Below are positions 1-7,248 of a DNA stretch of 8,390 nt, in pieces. The DNA is taken from the NCBI GenBank assembly GCA_903928615.1, contig CAIYRJ010000088.1, positions 1 to 8,390 on the forward strand, read 5' to 3'. The notes under the pieces were generated by a model that saw only the letters and a list, made by a program, of their open reading frames with translations, was not told where the DNA came from and ran no database searches. The DNA comes from an uncultured Actinomycetes bacterium (GTDB taxonomy: Bacteria; Actinomycetota; Thermoleophilia; Miltoncostaeales; Miltoncostaeaceae). Numbering within the stretch: position 1 is the stretch's first letter; each line of letters starts with the position of its first letter. Position numbers and translations under genes: made by a program.

Positions 1-669
<669 letters not shown>

Positions 670-713
670 CGTGCGGTGAATACCTTTCTCGGTTGATGCG
701 GCGGTGCCGCGCG

Positions 714-1271
714 TCAGGCCTCGACGGCGGTGGATAGATCGATGGGCGTGGTCTCGAGCGAGCGACGCATCTCCTCGAGGCGGGTGCGCAGCGAGGCGTC
801 CACCACGACGTCGCCGACCCGGAGCACCAGGCCGCCGATGATCGACGGGTCGACGGTCTCCTCGATCTCGGCCTCGCGCCCGGTCTGGGCGTGGACCTTC
901 TCGCGGATCTTGTCGCGGAGCTCCGGGGTGAGCGGGATCGCCGTGACGGCGGTCACGACCACGCGTCCCTCGGCCGCGTCGGCGCGGCGGCCGTATGCGG
1001 TGACCACCTCGTCGAGCTCGGCGATGCGGCCACGGTCGATGAGCACCTGGACGAACCCGAGGGACACCGGATGGGCGCCCTCCATGATCTCCGTGACGGC
1101 CGCCCTCTTGGCCGCCTCGTCGATCTCCGGGCTCGTGAGGGCCTCGCGCAGCTCCGACCCGGGGGCCATGGCCTCGGCGAACTCGTTGAGCTCGCTCCGC
1201 ACCTGGTCCACGGCGGACTGCGCGTGGGCTGCCTCGTACAGGGCCTCTGCGTATGTGGCCGCGACGCTCAT
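714..1271 (-). CDS. atpH: F1Fo ATP synthase subunit delta (OSCP family)
   Basis: Peripheral-stalk subunit that ties the top of the alpha3beta3 head to the b subunits, acting as part of the stator. The protein is 185 aa, the usual size for bacterial delta. The N-terminal helical domain begins [16 protein letters not shown], and the C-terminus carries the family signature around [20 protein letters not shown], followed by [12 protein letters not shown]. The start is firm: ATG at 1269-1271 shares one base with the atpF stop (TGATG), and AGAAGG at 1276-1281 lies four bases before it inside atpF. That arrangement implies translational coupling. Order b-delta-alpha is the standard bacterial one. 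This is a separate delta, not the mycobacterial b-delta fusion. Confidence 0.96.
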
Positions 1272-1813
1272 CAGGCCTTCTGCAATCCGCTGAGGTCGGC
1301 GTCGGCGAGTGCCTCCTCGACCAGCCTGCGGTGATCGTCGTCGGACAGGGACTTCTTCGTCACCTTCTCGGCTGCGGTGAGCGCGAGCACCACGACGTCG
1401 TCGCGGATGCCGGCCACGGCCGCCTGGGCCTGGGCGTCGATCTGCGTCTGCGTGTCGCTCACGATGCGCTCCCGCTGCTCCTGGGCCTGGCCCACGATCT
1501 CCGTCTTCTGCCGTTCGCCCTCACGGCGACCGGATTCGCGGAGCTCGTCGGCCTCGCGACGGGCCTCGGCCAGCTTGGCCTTGTACTCGTCGAGGAGCCT
1601 CACGGCCTCATCGCGGCTGCTCTCGGCCTCCTCGATGGAGGCTGCGATGGATGCGCGCCGCTTCTCGATCGCCTGGCCAACCGGGCCGAAGACGAACTTC
1701 TTCATGATGAGAAGCGTGAGAAGGAAGACGACGATCGTCCAGATCATCAGACCCGGACTGACCTGGAGGAGCGGGTTCGCTCCTACGGGATCGACGCCTG
1801 AAAGGGGACCCAT
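1271..1813 (-). CDS. atpF: F1Fo ATP synthase subunit b
   Basis: Membrane-anchored peripheral-stalk subunit, 180 aa, expected to dimerise. After a short polar N-terminus a single membrane helix runs through about residues 22-41 ([19 protein letters not shown]). A long, highly charged, alanine/glutamate/arginine-rich helix follows from about residue 48 to 150, suited to a parallel coiled coil. The C-terminus ([23 protein letters not shown]) matches the delta-binding end of b subunits. The gene starts only 3 bp after the atpE stop, with no clear Shine-Dalgarno of its own, so it probably depends on ribosomes finishing atpE. It overlaps atpH by one base. There is one b gene here rather than a b/b' pair. 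Confidence 0.96.
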
Positions 1814-1816
1814 GGT

Positions 1817-2089
<273 letters not shown>

Positions 2090-2971
2090 CTAGTGCTCGG
2101 ACTGCGCGGCGTAGCCGATGTAGATACCGGACAGCAGGGCGAAGATGAACGCCTGCAGACCGGCCACCAGCAGCCACTCGAACACGTAGAAGAAGAGGGC
2201 GAAAGGGATCCCCAGGACGCCGAGAAGGCTTCCGACGAGGATCGAGAAGCCCGCGGCCATGATGATGAGAAGGTGGCCGGCGAGCATGTTTGCGAACAGT
2301 CGCACCGAGAGGCTGACGAGGCGAAGCACCTGCGACAGCAGCTCGAGGGCGAAGATGAAGGGCGTGATGCCCTTGCTGGAACCCGGCGGGATCAGCGTCT
2401 TGAAGTAGCCGATGAAACCGTGGGTGCTGAAGCCTTCGTACAGGAAGGCAACGAACGTCATGAGCGCCAGGGCGATGGTCACGCTGATGTTCGCCGTGGC
2501 GGCGTAGAGCCCGAGGTCGCCGACCACCTGGAAGGTGTCGGTGTGCGGGGCCGTGGGAAGGGGGATGAACGAGATGAGGTTGTTCACCGCGATGAAGAGG
2601 AAGAGCGTGGCCAGGTAGGGGAACCACTTGGTGAACACGCGCTGCGGGAGGGTGGCGCCCGCGATCTGCTCCTCGGCGAACTCGTACGTGATCTCGAGCA
2701 CGTTCTGGGCCTTGGTGGGCTTCATCTTCAGCCCGCCGCGCACCACGAGGATGCCGAACAGGATGATGATCGCGCTCGAGGCCAGCATGTAGAAGACGGC
2801 CTTGTTGATGCTGAGGTCGATGAAGCCGAGGTTGAGGTCCACCCAGGCGGACGTCTCGAACTCCTCGGCGGGGTCGAACTCCTCTGCGGCCGACGCCAGC
2901 GAAGGCGCGGCGAGCAGCAGGCCGAAGGTGGCGATGAGCCACCACTTGAGCCGGCTCAACGACGCCCTCAC
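2090..2971 (-). CDS. atpB: F1Fo ATP synthase subunit a, with signal-peptide-like N-terminus
   Basis: Membrane stator subunit forming the two proton half-channels against the c ring; 293 aa. The essential arginine is Arg224 in LSVRLFANMLAGH (codon 2300-2302), equivalent to E. coli Arg210. His233 stands where E. coli has Glu219, and Glu265 lies in the last helix near the place of His245. The last helix has the conserved LQAFIFALL, and the protein ends YAAQSEH. Start choice: GTG at 2969-2971 overlaps the previous gene's stop (GTGA) and has GGAGGG six bases upstream. The open frame extends further upstream, but only as antisense-type sequence inside the preceding gene. Residues 1-28 (basic start, hydrophobic WLIATFGLLLAAPSLASA, then acidic AEEFDPAEEF) look like a cleavable signal peptide, which E. 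coli AtpB lacks. Confidence 0.95.
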   Translation of the reverse strand: MRASLSRLKWWLIATFGLLLAAPSLASAAEEFDPAEEFETSAWVDLNLGFIDLSINKAVFYMLASSAIIILFGILVVRGGLKMKPTKAQNVLEITYEFAEEQIAGATLPQRVFTKWFPYLATLFLFIAVNNLISFIPLPTAPHTDTFQVVGDLGLYAATANISVTIALALMTFVAFLYEGFSTHGFIGYFKTLIPPGSSKGITPFIFALELLSQVLRLVSLSVRLFANMLAGHLLIIMAAGFSILVGSLLGVLGIPFALFFYVFEWLLVAGLQAFIFALLSGIYIGYAAQSEH

Positions 2972-3411
2972 TCGTCGCCCTCCCCCGCCTCGGCGGCGGC
3001 CTGGGCCTTGGCGTCGGCGATGGCCTTCTCGCGCGTGCCGAACGCGATGGCGCGGCCCAGCAGGTCGAAGGTGAAGGCCACGATGAACACCGCGGCGGCC
3101 ACGAGGGCGACGGTCTCGTTGAAGCGGAGGGCCGTGATGAACAGCACGCCGGCCACGGTCCAGGCGCGGATGATGAACGACAGCCCGGTGACGCCCACGG
3201 CGGCCGACTGCCCCATCCTCATCGCGTACTTGGCGGTGGCCAGCTGCACGGCCCAGTTGGCCACCCACAGCGCGGTGCCCAGCACCCAGCCGTTGAGCGG
3301 CCCGCCCAGGGCAAGCACGATCGGCAGGGCCACGATGCAGGCGGCGATGCTCGCGGCGGTCGCGAACACGAGAGCACGGCGCGGGACTTCCTTAGAGGCA
3401 GGCACAGGCAT
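2968..3411 (-). CDS. AtpI-like small membrane protein of the ATP synthase operon
   Basis: 147 aa with four hydrophobic segments (about 13-35, 40-60, 72-94 and 99-117) and a charged, alanine-rich C-terminal tail (REKAIADAKAQAAAEAGEGDE). Position between wecA and atpB, size and topology match the AtpI/hypothetical protein found there in other actinobacteria (for example Rv1303 in Mycobacterium). AtpI-type proteins are thought to help c-ring assembly or magnesium supply; I see no catalytic motif, so function rests on context. The stop overlaps the atpB start by four bases, so the two are coupled. The start is uncertain: the ATG at 3409-3411 has no good Shine-Dalgarno. A strong GGAGGG at 3457-3462 lies six bases before an in-frame ATC (3448-3450), which would add 13 residues. 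I annotate the ATG by convention. Confidence 0.75.
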   Translation of the reverse strand: MPVPASKEVPRRALVFATAASIAACIVALPIVLALGGPLNGWVLGTALWVANWAVQLATAKYAMRMGQSAAVGVTGLSFIIRAWTVAGVLFITALRFNETVALVAAAVFIVAFTFDLLGRAIAFGTREKAIADAKAQAAAEAGEGDE

Positions 3412-4812: not shown

Positions 4813-5607
4813 TCAGTGGCCCGGCCGGTGGTAGATGCCGGCACCCCACGCGGAGATGGCCTCGCCCAGCAGCGCGGTGAGCGGCATCGTGATGGGCGCG
4901 AGGGGCCCGCTGGCCACCACCGGGTTGCGACGGCGACGATCGAGCACGCGGATCACCCGCGCGGCCACCGACCCCGCCGACTCGGTGGGCATGAGCCTCG
5001 GCAGGTCCTTCCCCCACCCCAGGCGGTGGAACGCCGTGCGCACGGGGCCCGGGCAGATGGCGAAGGCGCGCACGCCGGTGCCGCGCAGTTCCTGGTCGAG
5101 CCCGCGCACGAAGCGCATCTCGAAGGCCTTGGTGGCGGCGTACGTGGACATGTACGGAATGGCCTGCGACGCCGCGGCGGATGACATCACCACGAGATCG
5201 CCCCGCCGGTTGGCCACCATGCCCGGCAGCACGTGCGCGGCCATGTCCACCACGGCCACGCAGTTGAGGCGCACCTCGCGCACCTCCCTCTCGCGGTCGA
5301 GCTCGGTGAAGCGCCCCTGCGTGCCGATGCCGGCGTTCAGCACCGCCACGTCGAGCGGCCCGCGCAACTGCTCAACCACCCCGCGCACCGCGGCGCGCCC
5401 CTCCTCGCGCGAGAGGTCGGCGGCCACGCCGCGCACCTCCACCCCGTGCTCGCGCCGCGCCTGCTCGGCCAGCGCCGCCAGCCGGTCGCCGCGCCGGGCG
5501 ACGATCACCAGCGGATGCCCGCGCCGGGCGAGCCGGAGCGCCACCTCGGCCCCGATCCCGGCACTGGCCCCCGTGACGAGCGCCCACCCCCGCCGGTCGC
5601 TATGCAC
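4813..5607 (-). CDS. Short-chain dehydrogenase/reductase (classical SDR)
   Basis: NAD(P)-dependent oxidoreductase with a Rossmann fold; 264 aa, normal for classical SDRs. Visible motifs: the cofactor loop TGASAGIG (12-19), VARR after beta-2 (Arg residues suggest NADP(H) preference, inferred), NAGIG (91-95), structural Asn115, and the catalytic set Ser143, Tyr156 and Lys160 (YAATK), followed by PGPVRTAF. All catalytic residues are intact. The substrate cannot be told from sequence. I chose GTG at 5605-5607 because GGAGG (5617-5621) lies nine bases upstream. A longer open frame reaching 5652 would begin inside the arm of the neighbouring palindromic repeat and adds residues foreign to the family. 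The gene lies between glyA and wecA, where most actinobacteria have no such gene as far as I know, suggesting a lineage-specific insertion next to the repeats. Confidence 0.88.
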   Translation of the reverse strand: MHSDRRGWALVTGASAGIGAEVALRLARRGHPLVIVARRGDRLAALAEQARREHGVEVRGVAADLSREEGRAAVRGVVEQLRGPLDVAVLNAGIGTQGRFTELDREREVREVRLNCVAVVDMAAHVLPGMVANRRGDLVVMSSAAASQAIPYMSTYAATKAFEMRFVRGLDQELRGTGVRAFAICPGPVRTAFHRLGWGKDLPRLMPTESAGSVAARVIRVLDRRRRNPVVASGPLAPITMPLTALLGEAISAWGAGIYHRPGH

Positions 5608-5616
5608 GCAGGCGCG

Positions 5617-5621
5617 CCTCC
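5617..5621 (-). promoter_or_regulatory. Ribosome binding site fixing the SDR start
   Basis: GGAGG on the minus strand, nine bases before the GTG at 5605-5607. It decides against the more upstream ATG at 5652, which has no comparable site and lies at the edge of the repeat arm. Confidence 0.65.
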
Positions 5622-5641
5622 ATGCTGCGGGGGGATTCGCA

Positions 5642-5759
5642 ACGGGAAGCACCGGGGCATTGCCTACGGTCGCGACGCGCAGCGCGAGCGAGCCGGGCTC
5701 CGCCCGGATTCGCAGGGCGGCAATCGTCTTCCCTTCGGCAATGCCCCGGTGCTTCCCGT
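5642..5759 (+). repeat. Palindromic element copy A (inverted arms, 72 nt core)
   Basis: A 23 bp perfect inverted repeat (5642-5664 with 5737-5759) encloses a 72-base core (5665-5736). Two more outer pairs follow after one mismatch. Within the core is a hairpin, CCGGGC-TCC-GCCCGG (5693-5707). The core aligns without gaps to the 72-base core of copy B read from the other strand: by hand count 56 of 72 positions agree. The strand given is only the one on which the shared core reads in the same sense as the minus strand of copy B. It could be a REP-like element, a small non-autonomous mobile element or a structured RNA. I do not recognise a named family. Confidence 0.8.
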
Positions 5760-5810
5760 GGCACGTCGCCGCAGCAGGAATGGCCCCCCCGGCCTGGCTG
5801 CCGCGAGAGC
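5760..5810. other. Spacer between the two palindromic copies
   Basis: 51 bp of C-rich sequence including a run of seven C (around 5784-5790) and a small hairpin, GCCGC-GAGA-GCGGC (5800-5813), that reaches into the outer arm of copy B. No coding or regulatory signal is recognisable. Confidence 0.4.
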
Positions 5811-5930
5811 GGCCCGGCGGGGCGGGGTGTTCCCGGAGGGAAGACCAATGCCGCCATGCCTTCCCGGGCGAAGCCCGGGACGCTCGCGCTGCCGTTGGCG
5901 ACCGAAGGGAACACCCCGCCCGGCCAGGCC
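5811..5930 (-). repeat. Palindromic element copy B (inverted arms, 72 nt core)
   Basis: Arms 5811-5834 and 5907-5930 are complementary at 22 of 24 positions; the inner 15 pairs (5820-5834 with 5907-5921) are perfect. They enclose a 72-base core (5835-5906) with a central 8 bp hairpin, TCCCGGGC-GAA-GCCCGGGA (5862-5880). Copy B faces copy A, so the two copies together make a larger inverted repeat. The arm sequences differ from copy A, but wherever one side of the inner stem differs, the partner differs to match. The element ends 25 bp after the glyA stop codon, so it would lie in the 3' region of the glyA message. It could act as a transcript end or stabiliser there (inference). Confidence 0.8.
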
Positions 5931-5955
5931 GTCAGGCAGCGCGCGACACAGGCGA

Positions 5956-7248
5956 TCACACGCGGGCGGTTTCGGCGATGAGCTGGGGGTAGAGCGGGAA
6001 GCGGTCGCCCAGCGCCTTGCTGCGCTGGCGAAGGCCATCGAGGTCGGCGTCGGTGGTGTCGGGCGTGAGGGCCTCGGCGATGATGGCGCCCACCTCGCGA
6101 AGCTCATCGGGGCCCATGCCGCGCGTGGTGAGGGCGGCGGTGCCGATGCGCACGCCTGACGTGACCGTGGGCGGGCGCTCGTCGAACGGCACGCCGTTCT
6201 TATTCACCGTGATGCCCGCCCGGTCGAGCCGCTCCTCGCCATCCACGCCGGTGAGTGGCGTGCCGGAGAGGTTGACGAGCACGAGGTGGTTGTCGGTGCC
6301 GCCCGTGACCAGGTTGATGCCGTTGGTCATGAGCACCTCGGCCATGGCCTGGCAGTTGTCCACCGTGCGCTGCTGGCGCTCGCGGAACTCCGGCGTGAGG
6401 CACTGCCCGAAGGCGATGGCCTTGCCGGCGATCACGTGCATGAGCGGGCCGCCCTGCAGGCCGGGGAACACCGCGCGGTCGATGGCGCTGCCGAACTCCT
6501 CGTCGCACATGATGAATCCCGCACGCGGGCCACCGAGGGTCTTGTGCATGGTCGAGGTGACCACGTGCGCGATGCCTACCGGGCTCGGGTGCACGCCCCC
6601 GGCCACGAGGCCCGAGATGTGCGCCATGTCCACCATCAGCTTCGCGCCGACCTCGTCGGCAATCTCACGGAAGGCAGGGAAGTCGAGCGTGCGCGGATAC
6701 GCGCTGGCGCCCGCCACGATGAGCTTGGGGCGCACCTCGAGGGCCTGCGCGCGGATGTCGTCCATCTCGAGGCGGTGCGATTCGGGGTTCACCCCGTAGC
6801 CGTGGAACTCGTACATGCGGCCCGAGAAGTTCACCTTGAGGCCATGGGTGAGGTGGCCGCCGTGGGCCAGCGACATGCCCATCACCTTGTCGCCGGGCTC
6901 GATCAGCACGCTGTAGGCGGCCTCGTTTGCCGTGCTGCCCGAGTGCGGCTGCACGTTGACGTGATCGCACCCGAAGAGATCCTTGGCGCGCGCGATGGCG
7001 AGGTCCTCCACCTCGTCCACCACCTCGCAGCCACCGTAATAGCGCTTGTGCGGCAGCCCCTCGGCGTACTTGTTGGTGAGCACCGAGCCCACCGCCTGCA
7101 GGATCGAGATGCTCGTGAAGTTCTCGCTGGCGATCATCTCGAGCGTCTCGGCCTGCCGCTCGAGCTCGCGCCTCAGCAGCGCGGCAACCGCCGGGTCGGC
7201 CTCGGATACGTCCTGGGACAGCTGGCTCTCGGGATCGAAGAAGCTCAC
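5956..7248 (-). CDS. glyA: Serine hydroxymethyltransferase
   Basis: PLP enzyme converting serine plus tetrahydrofolate to glycine and 5,10-methylene-tetrahydrofolate, the main one-carbon source; cytosolic dimer or tetramer. The protein is 430 aa. Motifs: LEMIASEN (37-44), KRYYGG (68-73), PHSGSTAN (101-108), the cofactor-contacting Asp207 and His210 in MVDMAHISGL, the PLP Schiff-base lysine Lys236 in TSTMHKTLGGPRAG, and the carboxylate-binding Arg367 in SGVRIGT. All key residues are present. I chose GTG at 7246-7248: GGAG lies seven bases upstream and the family N-terminus begins just after it. The longer open frame to 7407 overlaps prmC and adds a proline/arginine-rich shadow. It starts 47 bp after the prmC stop and is followed by the palindromic pair. 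Confidence 0.96.
   Translation of the reverse strand: MSFFDPESQLSQDVSEADPAVAALLRRELERQAETLEMIASENFTSISILQAVGSVLTNKYAEGLPHKRYYGGCEVVDEVEDLAIARAKDLFGCDHVNVQPHSGSTANEAAYSVLIEPGDKVMGMSLAHGGHLTHGLKVNFSGRMYEFHGYGVNPESHRLEMDDIRAQALEVRPKLIVAGASAYPRTLDFPAFREIADEVGAKLMVDMAHISGLVAGGVHPSPVGIAHVVTSTMHKTLGGPRAGFIMCDEEFGSAIDRAVFPGLQGGPLMHVIAGKAIAFGQCLTPEFRERQQRTVDNCQAMAEVLMTNGINLVTGGTDNHLVLVNLSGTPLTGVDGEERLDRAGITVNKNGVPFDERPPTVTSGVRIGTAALTTRGMGPDELREVGAIIAEALTPDTTDADLDGLRQRSKALGDRFPLYPQLIAETARV

Follow-up and report, generated by a model that had tools for sequence, protein, structure and literature searches.

MITEs, including Correia/NEMIS, are non-coding, intergenic, hairpin-forming elements of 100–150 bp that are present in some genomes and absent from their relatives, and their terminal inverted repeats are common to all copies. 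Integron attC sites are read as folded DNA, with a stem that varies in sequence while keeping its structure and with conserved ends at the stem base. More generally, covariation across a stem is usually taken as strong evidence of a functional RNA. REP sequences have stems of 5–13 bp, loops of 2–20 nt and a GTAG or CGTC end (PMC3733652). Finally, template switching between inverted repeats is described as homogenizing arms and inverting spacers in yeast (PMC8604942) and as producing multi-base compensatory changes and loop inversions in rRNA genes (PMC8794818); the events in these accounts are short, with loops of 7–8 nt (PMC8794818) and 2–5 substituted bp (PMC8604942).

The elements considered here were noticed as two facing palindromes, A and B, in an 8,390-nt stretch of actinobacterial DNA (the window). 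They resemble MITEs in size, in forming intergenic hairpins and in presence or absence between relatives, but their ends differ from place to place and their middle is common. As in attC sites, structure is kept while the stem varies; here, however, the stem base is the variable part. REP, BIME and REPIN elements are likewise short palindromic intergenic repeats that occur singly, facing or in tandem, with stems that vary within a family, whereas the arms of our elements enclose a core of ~68–74 nt, copies are few (1–7 per genome) and a link to RAYT was not found. Quasi-palindromes corrected by template switching share arm homogenization and spacer inversion with our elements (PMC8604942, PMC8794818), but are described there as mutation events with short spacers, not as a dispersed homologous family with a ~68–74-nt core and inversion of the whole insert.

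We observe one core at about eight intergenic places, complementary arms specific to each place, a 152-bp inversion, and presence or absence between sister species. Our best explanation, to which we give roughly an even chance, is that A and B belong to a set of genus-specific interrupted DNA palindromes in which template switching during replication preserves the complementarity of the arms and, by the same event, would flip the centre.

Two facing palindromes between glyA and a dehydrogenase gene

Copies A (plus strand, 5642–5759) and B (minus strand, 5811–5930) lie where the preliminary description put them (Table 1). A repeat search of the window recovered the arms that they share (5653–5748 and 5823–5918; 96 nt, 77% complementary) as well as the stem of each copy, 5639–5669/5732–5762 in A (90% complementary) and 5810–5834/5907–5931 in B (92% complementary). 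Recounting reproduced the reported identity of 56/72 over the core at 5668–5739, with 74/96 positions identical over the longer stretch, and all five pairs named as covarying (5662/5739, 5659/5742, 5658/5743, 5691/5709 and 5674/5725) were verified. Among the 23 pairs of the stem 5642–5664/5737–5759, ten are changed on both sides and Watson–Crick in both copies, 11 are unchanged, one is changed on both sides and T-G in B, and one is changed on a single side, giving C-C in B. Used as a query against its own genome, A finds B at E 5.2e-15, and the two copies fold as DNA with z-scores of −7.0 and −5.6, a stability reached by 0 of 200 shuffles. The nearest named records of the adjoining glyA are Thermoleophilia MAGs. 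Elsewhere in the window, positions 1–3411 carry ATP synthase genes, named from translations only, in the order expected of an operon.

Table 1. Features of the facing pair and the genes on either side (window coordinates)
Feature	Position	Strand	Remarks
Copy A, left arm of outer stem P1	5642..5664	+	Pairs with 5737–5759; 23/23 Watson–Crick
Copy A, conserved core (GGTCGC ... GTCTTCCCTNCGG)	5668..5738	+	Antisense to glyA; pattern search; match to covariance model R1 (see below) at 5648–5756, 106.9 bits
Copy A, right arm of P1	5737..5759	+	Repeat search and pair check
Spacer separating the facing copies	5760..5811	.	From the sequence; poorly aligned counterpart in G019
Copy B, 3' arm of P1 (minus-strand sense)	5812..5834	-	21/23 Watson–Crick with 5907–5929
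Copy B, conserved core	5833..5903	-	Same sense as glyA and SDR; pattern search; R1 match at 5815–5923, 113.0 bits
Copy B, 5' arm of P1 (minus-strand sense)	5907..5929	-	Repeat search and pair check
glyA (serine hydroxymethyltransferase), gene upstream of the intergenic place	5956..7245	-	Pfam SHMT PF00464, 1.6e-154
Short-chain dehydrogenase (SDR), gene downstream	4813..5601	-	Pfam adh_short PF00106, 3e-43

The facing pair recurs as a unit. Besides the glyA/SDR pair of G000, a second stands beside surE in G019, at a contig end with only one side visible, and 228/299 aligned columns of the two pairs are identical; the remaining 43 copies of the family are single or in direct tandem. In G007, a remnant at glyA/SDR (L207) has B's left arm joined to A's right end, which is what one deletion across the middle of the facing pair would leave.

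In keeping with the preliminary description, which recognized no family, an Rfam scan of the window gave 0 matches above the gathering cut-off. Below that cut-off, the strongest match was MIR918 (35.8 of the 268 bits required, E 7.3e-05). It extends across the facing pair, and we read it, together with three weaker matches to miRNA precursors, as a match to a long hairpin. Searches of the literature outside subscription journals found no description of this hairpin-repeat family.

Distribution, places and orientation

An initial DNA search gave clear relatives in the genus of the window; matches beyond that genus were short and weak. A pattern search then matched 108 of 299 genomes, with 21 true copies by eye, all in the genus, and a remainder that looks like chance. 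Covariance model R1, built from these 21, scores 47 copies at 70 bits or more, spread over 14 of the 20 genomes of one Thermoleophilia genus, thus bearing out the expectation that further copies would turn up in this and related genomes. In 279 other genomes of the class, R1 at E 1e-4 and with stricter filters than in the genus search found 0 copies; because the genus and other-class searches scored only some of the first-look candidates (150 and 12 per genome, respectively) and the filters of the latter were stricter, these counts are lower bounds. The genus set consists of 20 draft genomes, four of them less than 70% complete (G004, G015, G016 and G017). Carriage of copies by phages or plasmids was also considered and set aside, as blastn of window positions 5630–5940 against phage and plasmid sequences gave no match; an exact-pattern scan of IMG/VR with the commonest core type only (GCGAATCGGAATCGC), which would miss A- or B-like copies, gave none either.

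Every copy has the conserved core of ~68–74 nt between its arms, which run to 15–29 pairs in 43 of the 47 copies and to 7–11 in the other four. The claim that the elements are larger than classic REPs therefore holds against the 5–13-bp stems given for REPs (PMC3733652), and no end is common to the places, as the GTAG or CGTC tag of a REP would be. The likeness to REPINs that the preliminary description saw holds only in part. Palindromes that are short and come in tandem groups and in facing pairs, such as the dimer beside surE, would suit REP or REPIN elements moved by a RAYT (Y1 transposase), and RAYT-type genes do occur in 11 of the 20 genus genomes, eight of which have copies. The link to RAYT nevertheless fails: Y1_Tnp hits are present in copy-free G011, G014 and G016 and missing from copy-bearing G001, G006, G007, G012, G015 and G019 (drafts, in which absence is not firm), and none of the 15 Y1_Tnp regions has an R1 copy around it, the best R1 match there being 12.9 bits and the flanking palindromes being, by eye, of other kinds. 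We regard mobilization by RAYT as very improbable. A weak first match near a Y1_Tnp gene (G000:C398) is no copy according to R1.

Two other sets of palindromes came to light. The Y1_Tnp (RAYT-type) genes in L295, L297, L299 and others of L285–L299 are flanked by palindromes of type GGTGNCAGNCACC, which by eye form a REP-like set of their own, and in L297 a short tandem run of CTACCGGGGGC-like units lies immediately upstream of the Y1_Tnp frame. A second family has the same architecture as ours with an unrelated core (L203:1975–2105 and 2199–2316; L301, L302, L303, L306); G002 has a tandem pair of its copies, G003 one on each of two contigs, and G004 and G017 one each. This second family adjoins ahcY where examined and is weakly touched by R1.

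All 47 copies are intergenic, at about eight recurring places, a statement that depends on gene calls from a simple codon score and tblastn of named neighbours; neighbour names come from Pfam where it was run and otherwise from a reading of the translation start. Ten copies lie at glyA/SDR (core sense to glyA in six, antisense in four), 14 at truA/surE (12 sense and two antisense to truA), five at gatB/ilvN (three sense and two antisense to gatB), four between the convergent genes of P-type ATPase/GST (two in each sense relative to the ATPase gene) and 11 between the divergent genes of X/sucC (0 sense and 11 antisense to sucC), with one each at folP/ftsH, at plsY/unknown and beside a SIS-type gene. 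The gene context thus ranges over co-directional, convergent and divergent neighbours, and core orientation varies among genomes at four places, ATPase/GST and three more. The copies at X/sucC form tandem groups of two, three, four and two in G002, G003, G004 and G017, respectively; L190 and L191, at the same place, show by eye truncated copies with the 5' half of the core between full tandem copies. Only one neighbour is visible at some contig ends (surE in G019, the SIS gene in G010, gatB/ilvN in G000), and in G018 two further small genes separate the surE copy from truA. The antisense gatB/ilvN copy of G000 sits at such an end, next to an inverted duplicate of the ilvN start (end of G000:C225, L198/L264), and this copy with its duplicate may be an assembly error, possibly induced by the hairpin.

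These contexts bear on whether the copies are ordinary intrinsic terminators that merely look alike, which we consider highly improbable. They are GC-rich intergenic hairpins, and five lie between convergent genes (four at ATPase/GST, one at plsY/unknown). On the other hand, the core is homologous across places, the X/sucC copies lie between divergent genes, and a terminator scan that takes only loops of 3–8 with a T-run found 0 sites over 5500–6060.

Covariation and the change of arms

The covariation first seen between two copies is strong in the larger alignment. With 21 copies, RNAalifold places 34 pairs, 17 of them with changes on both sides, and the covariation score is 0.413, against 0.112 in shuffles, a control that ignores relatedness, and 0.05–0.07 with partners slid, a control that favours the structure because the structure was derived from the same alignment. 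Further pair types, the weakest of five covariation measures, number 33 against 29.2 and are reached by 35 of 500 shuffles.

Selection for pairing in a structured RNA (a 3'-UTR element, attenuator or small RNA) would account for such covariation and for conserved internal loops; some core pairs also take G-U forms (columns 25/83 and 27/80), and 21 of the 29 copies at co-directional places lie in gene sense. Several observations oppose this reading, which we judge quite unlikely. Of the 946 arm pairs in the 47 copies, 876 are Watson–Crick, 14 G-T, 19 A-C and 37 other, counted in the best of several registers and clipped to the paired stretch and thus biased toward pairing; G-T does not exceed A-C, which argues against RNA selection on the core strand, as this would favour G-T. 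Orientation differs at four places, including the flip of a whole insert between sister genomes described below, copies stand between co-directional, convergent and divergent genes alike, places are empty in relatives, and no Rfam family was found at gathering score. Opposite orientations at one place speak against a single functional transcript, whereas the sense bias at truA/surE and the uniform orientation at X/sucC speak the other way. Moreover, one G-T pair inside the core is invariant in 21/21 copies and the internal loops of the core are conserved in a sequence-specific manner, two features that hint at binding by a protein or at a function as RNA; the invariant G-T fits a purely DNA-level reading less well. 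The proposal that a folded form is either selected for or regularly regenerated is thus supported as a whole by the further copies and the strong covariation, and between its two halves the evidence leans to regeneration at the level of DNA over RNA selection.

Comparisons of arms at the same place in different genomes (169 of 192 copy pairs, kept at an arm identity of at least 0.5; related and not independent) suggest how pairing is maintained. Where arm identity is at least 0.9 (59 comparisons), 84 changes are one-sided and three are double and pair-preserving; at 0.75–0.9 (28 comparisons) the numbers are 46 and 66, and at 0.5–0.75 (82 comparisons) 135 and 407. Double changes are therefore scarce in close pairs of arms and dominant in distant ones, so mismatches come first and are later resolved to new pairs. 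Pooled, the 169 comparisons contain 476 double changes that preserve pairing, 46 double changes that leave the bases unpaired and 265 one-sided changes, against an expectation with independent sides of 224 double changes of any kind and 860 one-sided. Double changes that keep Watson–Crick pairing in orthologous arms, the signature of template switching, are thus abundant.

Between places, by contrast, the copies have in common the core and roughly 12–16 flanking nt. In the 66 of 874 different-place pairs with a core identity of at least 0.90 (47 of them involving X/sucC and hence not independent), arm identity is 0.62–0.74 over the first 12 nt and falls to 0.26–0.42 beyond 16 nt, unlike the terminal repeats shared by all copies of a MITE; in same-place pairs (n=67), flank identity stays at 0.56–0.98. 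For example, the glyA/SDR copy of G004 and the SIS-gene copy of G010 have a core identity of 0.99 and unlike outer arms, each nearly self-complementary (24/25 and 20/21 pairs). Across the set, complementarity at outer pairs 12–24 is 70%, and it drops to 37% if arms from different places are matched with each other. The core therefore travels, or is converted, taking short inner arms along; the outer arms belong to each place.

Such a division would also be expected if the core and short inner inverted repeats formed a miniature mobile element whose targets were the loops of resident hairpins such as transcription terminators; the outer arms would then be the target's and an inversion would reflect independent insertion or a recombinase. 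Some copy-free gatB/ilvN places do have a short GC-rich hairpin immediately ahead of the start of ilvN (for example in G002, G003 and G004; by eye), the empty ATPase/GST site of G013 is the palindrome CGACTAGTCG, filled ATPase/GST sites have CTAG on both flanks (in G007 one of them is ATAG), resembling a 4-bp duplication of the target (by eye), and the A/B pair is found again at a second place. However, other empty places (glyA/SDR in G013, G014, G008 and G017; by eye) show no clear hairpin, the duplication occurs at one place only, where both CTAGs double as the genes' stop codons, and no transposase was identified, the search having covered Y1_Tnp. Above all, same-place arms change on both sides together, for which a force beyond the target would still be required. 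We consider this origin unlikely. CTAG as a general target was discarded, being found at one place only, and no clear target-site duplication appears at glyA/SDR in G002/G017 or gatB/ilvN in G007/G013.

Inversion, gain and loss between related genomes

At the ATPase/GST place, the insert is bounded by two CTAGs, of which one reads ATAG in G007. Its length is 149 bp in G019 and 152 bp in the other three genomes, G000, G007 and G015. Compared directly, G000 matches G015 at 148/152 positions and G007 matches G019 at 127/152, whereas G000 and G007, sisters with a support of 0.939 in a four-protein tree, match at 116/161 directly and at 145/152, outer ends included, when one is reversed. The whole 152-bp insert is inverted between these sister genomes, and the reversal extends to the outer ends, so that a flip introduced by assembly within the arms does not account for it. 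The inverted centre expected of template switching is thus present in G000/G007, with orientation differences at three further places.

Under template switching, one arm would be re-copied from the other during replication, restoring complementarity, and the same event is predicted to flip the centre in place. The core with its roughly 12–16 flanking nt would spread between places by transposition or gene conversion and acquire new outer arms at each new place, perhaps entering by insertion into resident hairpins, and copies would be lost through palindrome-stimulated deletion. We infer that the arms are maintained by DNA-strand copying instead of RNA selection and that the inversion is due to this same copying; no host function is required. 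Against template switching, an inversion of 74–152 nt is far longer than the cases described in the two accounts cited above, orientation is uneven (12/14 copies at truA/surE and 11/11 at X/sucC face one way), and the GST inversion ends near CTAG, outside the arms, so that a recombinase or independent reinsertion could equally have produced it. Compensatory mutation under selection for a DNA hairpin may instead be at work. A bolder proposal, which we advance tentatively as possible but doubtful, is a mobile DNA inherited by shape: only the ~68–74-nt core with short inner arms would move, outer arms would be acquired anew at each site, and from then on the fold would be inherited instead of the sequence, through continual rewriting of the arms and in-place inversion of the whole 75–152-bp centre. 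The facing A/B pair would then be a unit of higher order.

More broadly, these repeats covary in textbook fashion, yet they flip relative to transcription, have no bias toward wobble pairs and can be present in one species and absent from its sister. Copying at the level of DNA may therefore imitate RNA selection over whole elements of 130–150 nt. If maintenance by template switching is correct, these repeats would call for caution in covariation-based RNA discovery and would offer a natural set of orthologous palindromes for dating and testing arm correction, inversion and excision.

Turnover is seen most clearly between G019, which holds five copies, and its sister G013 (support 0.997, four-protein tree), which holds none and is empty at glyA/SDR, ATPase/GST and gatB/ilvN; surE was searched for in G013 and not found. 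Remnants are visible by eye at glyA/SDR in G007, G001 and L030 and at ATPase/GST in G011. Palindromes are frequently deleted, and the empty places and remnants fit such deletion, gain and loss being inseparable at most places. Loss of the palindrome nuclease SbcD was set aside as the cause of presence or absence: 0 of 20 genus genomes pass the TIGR00619 cut-off, and the weak hits in 13 of 20 do not track copies, although a diverged SbcD may be present. At glyA/SDR, the comparison of G002 with G017 looks as though the flank had supplied an arm, with 7 nt inverted, but a deletion in G017 explains it equally.
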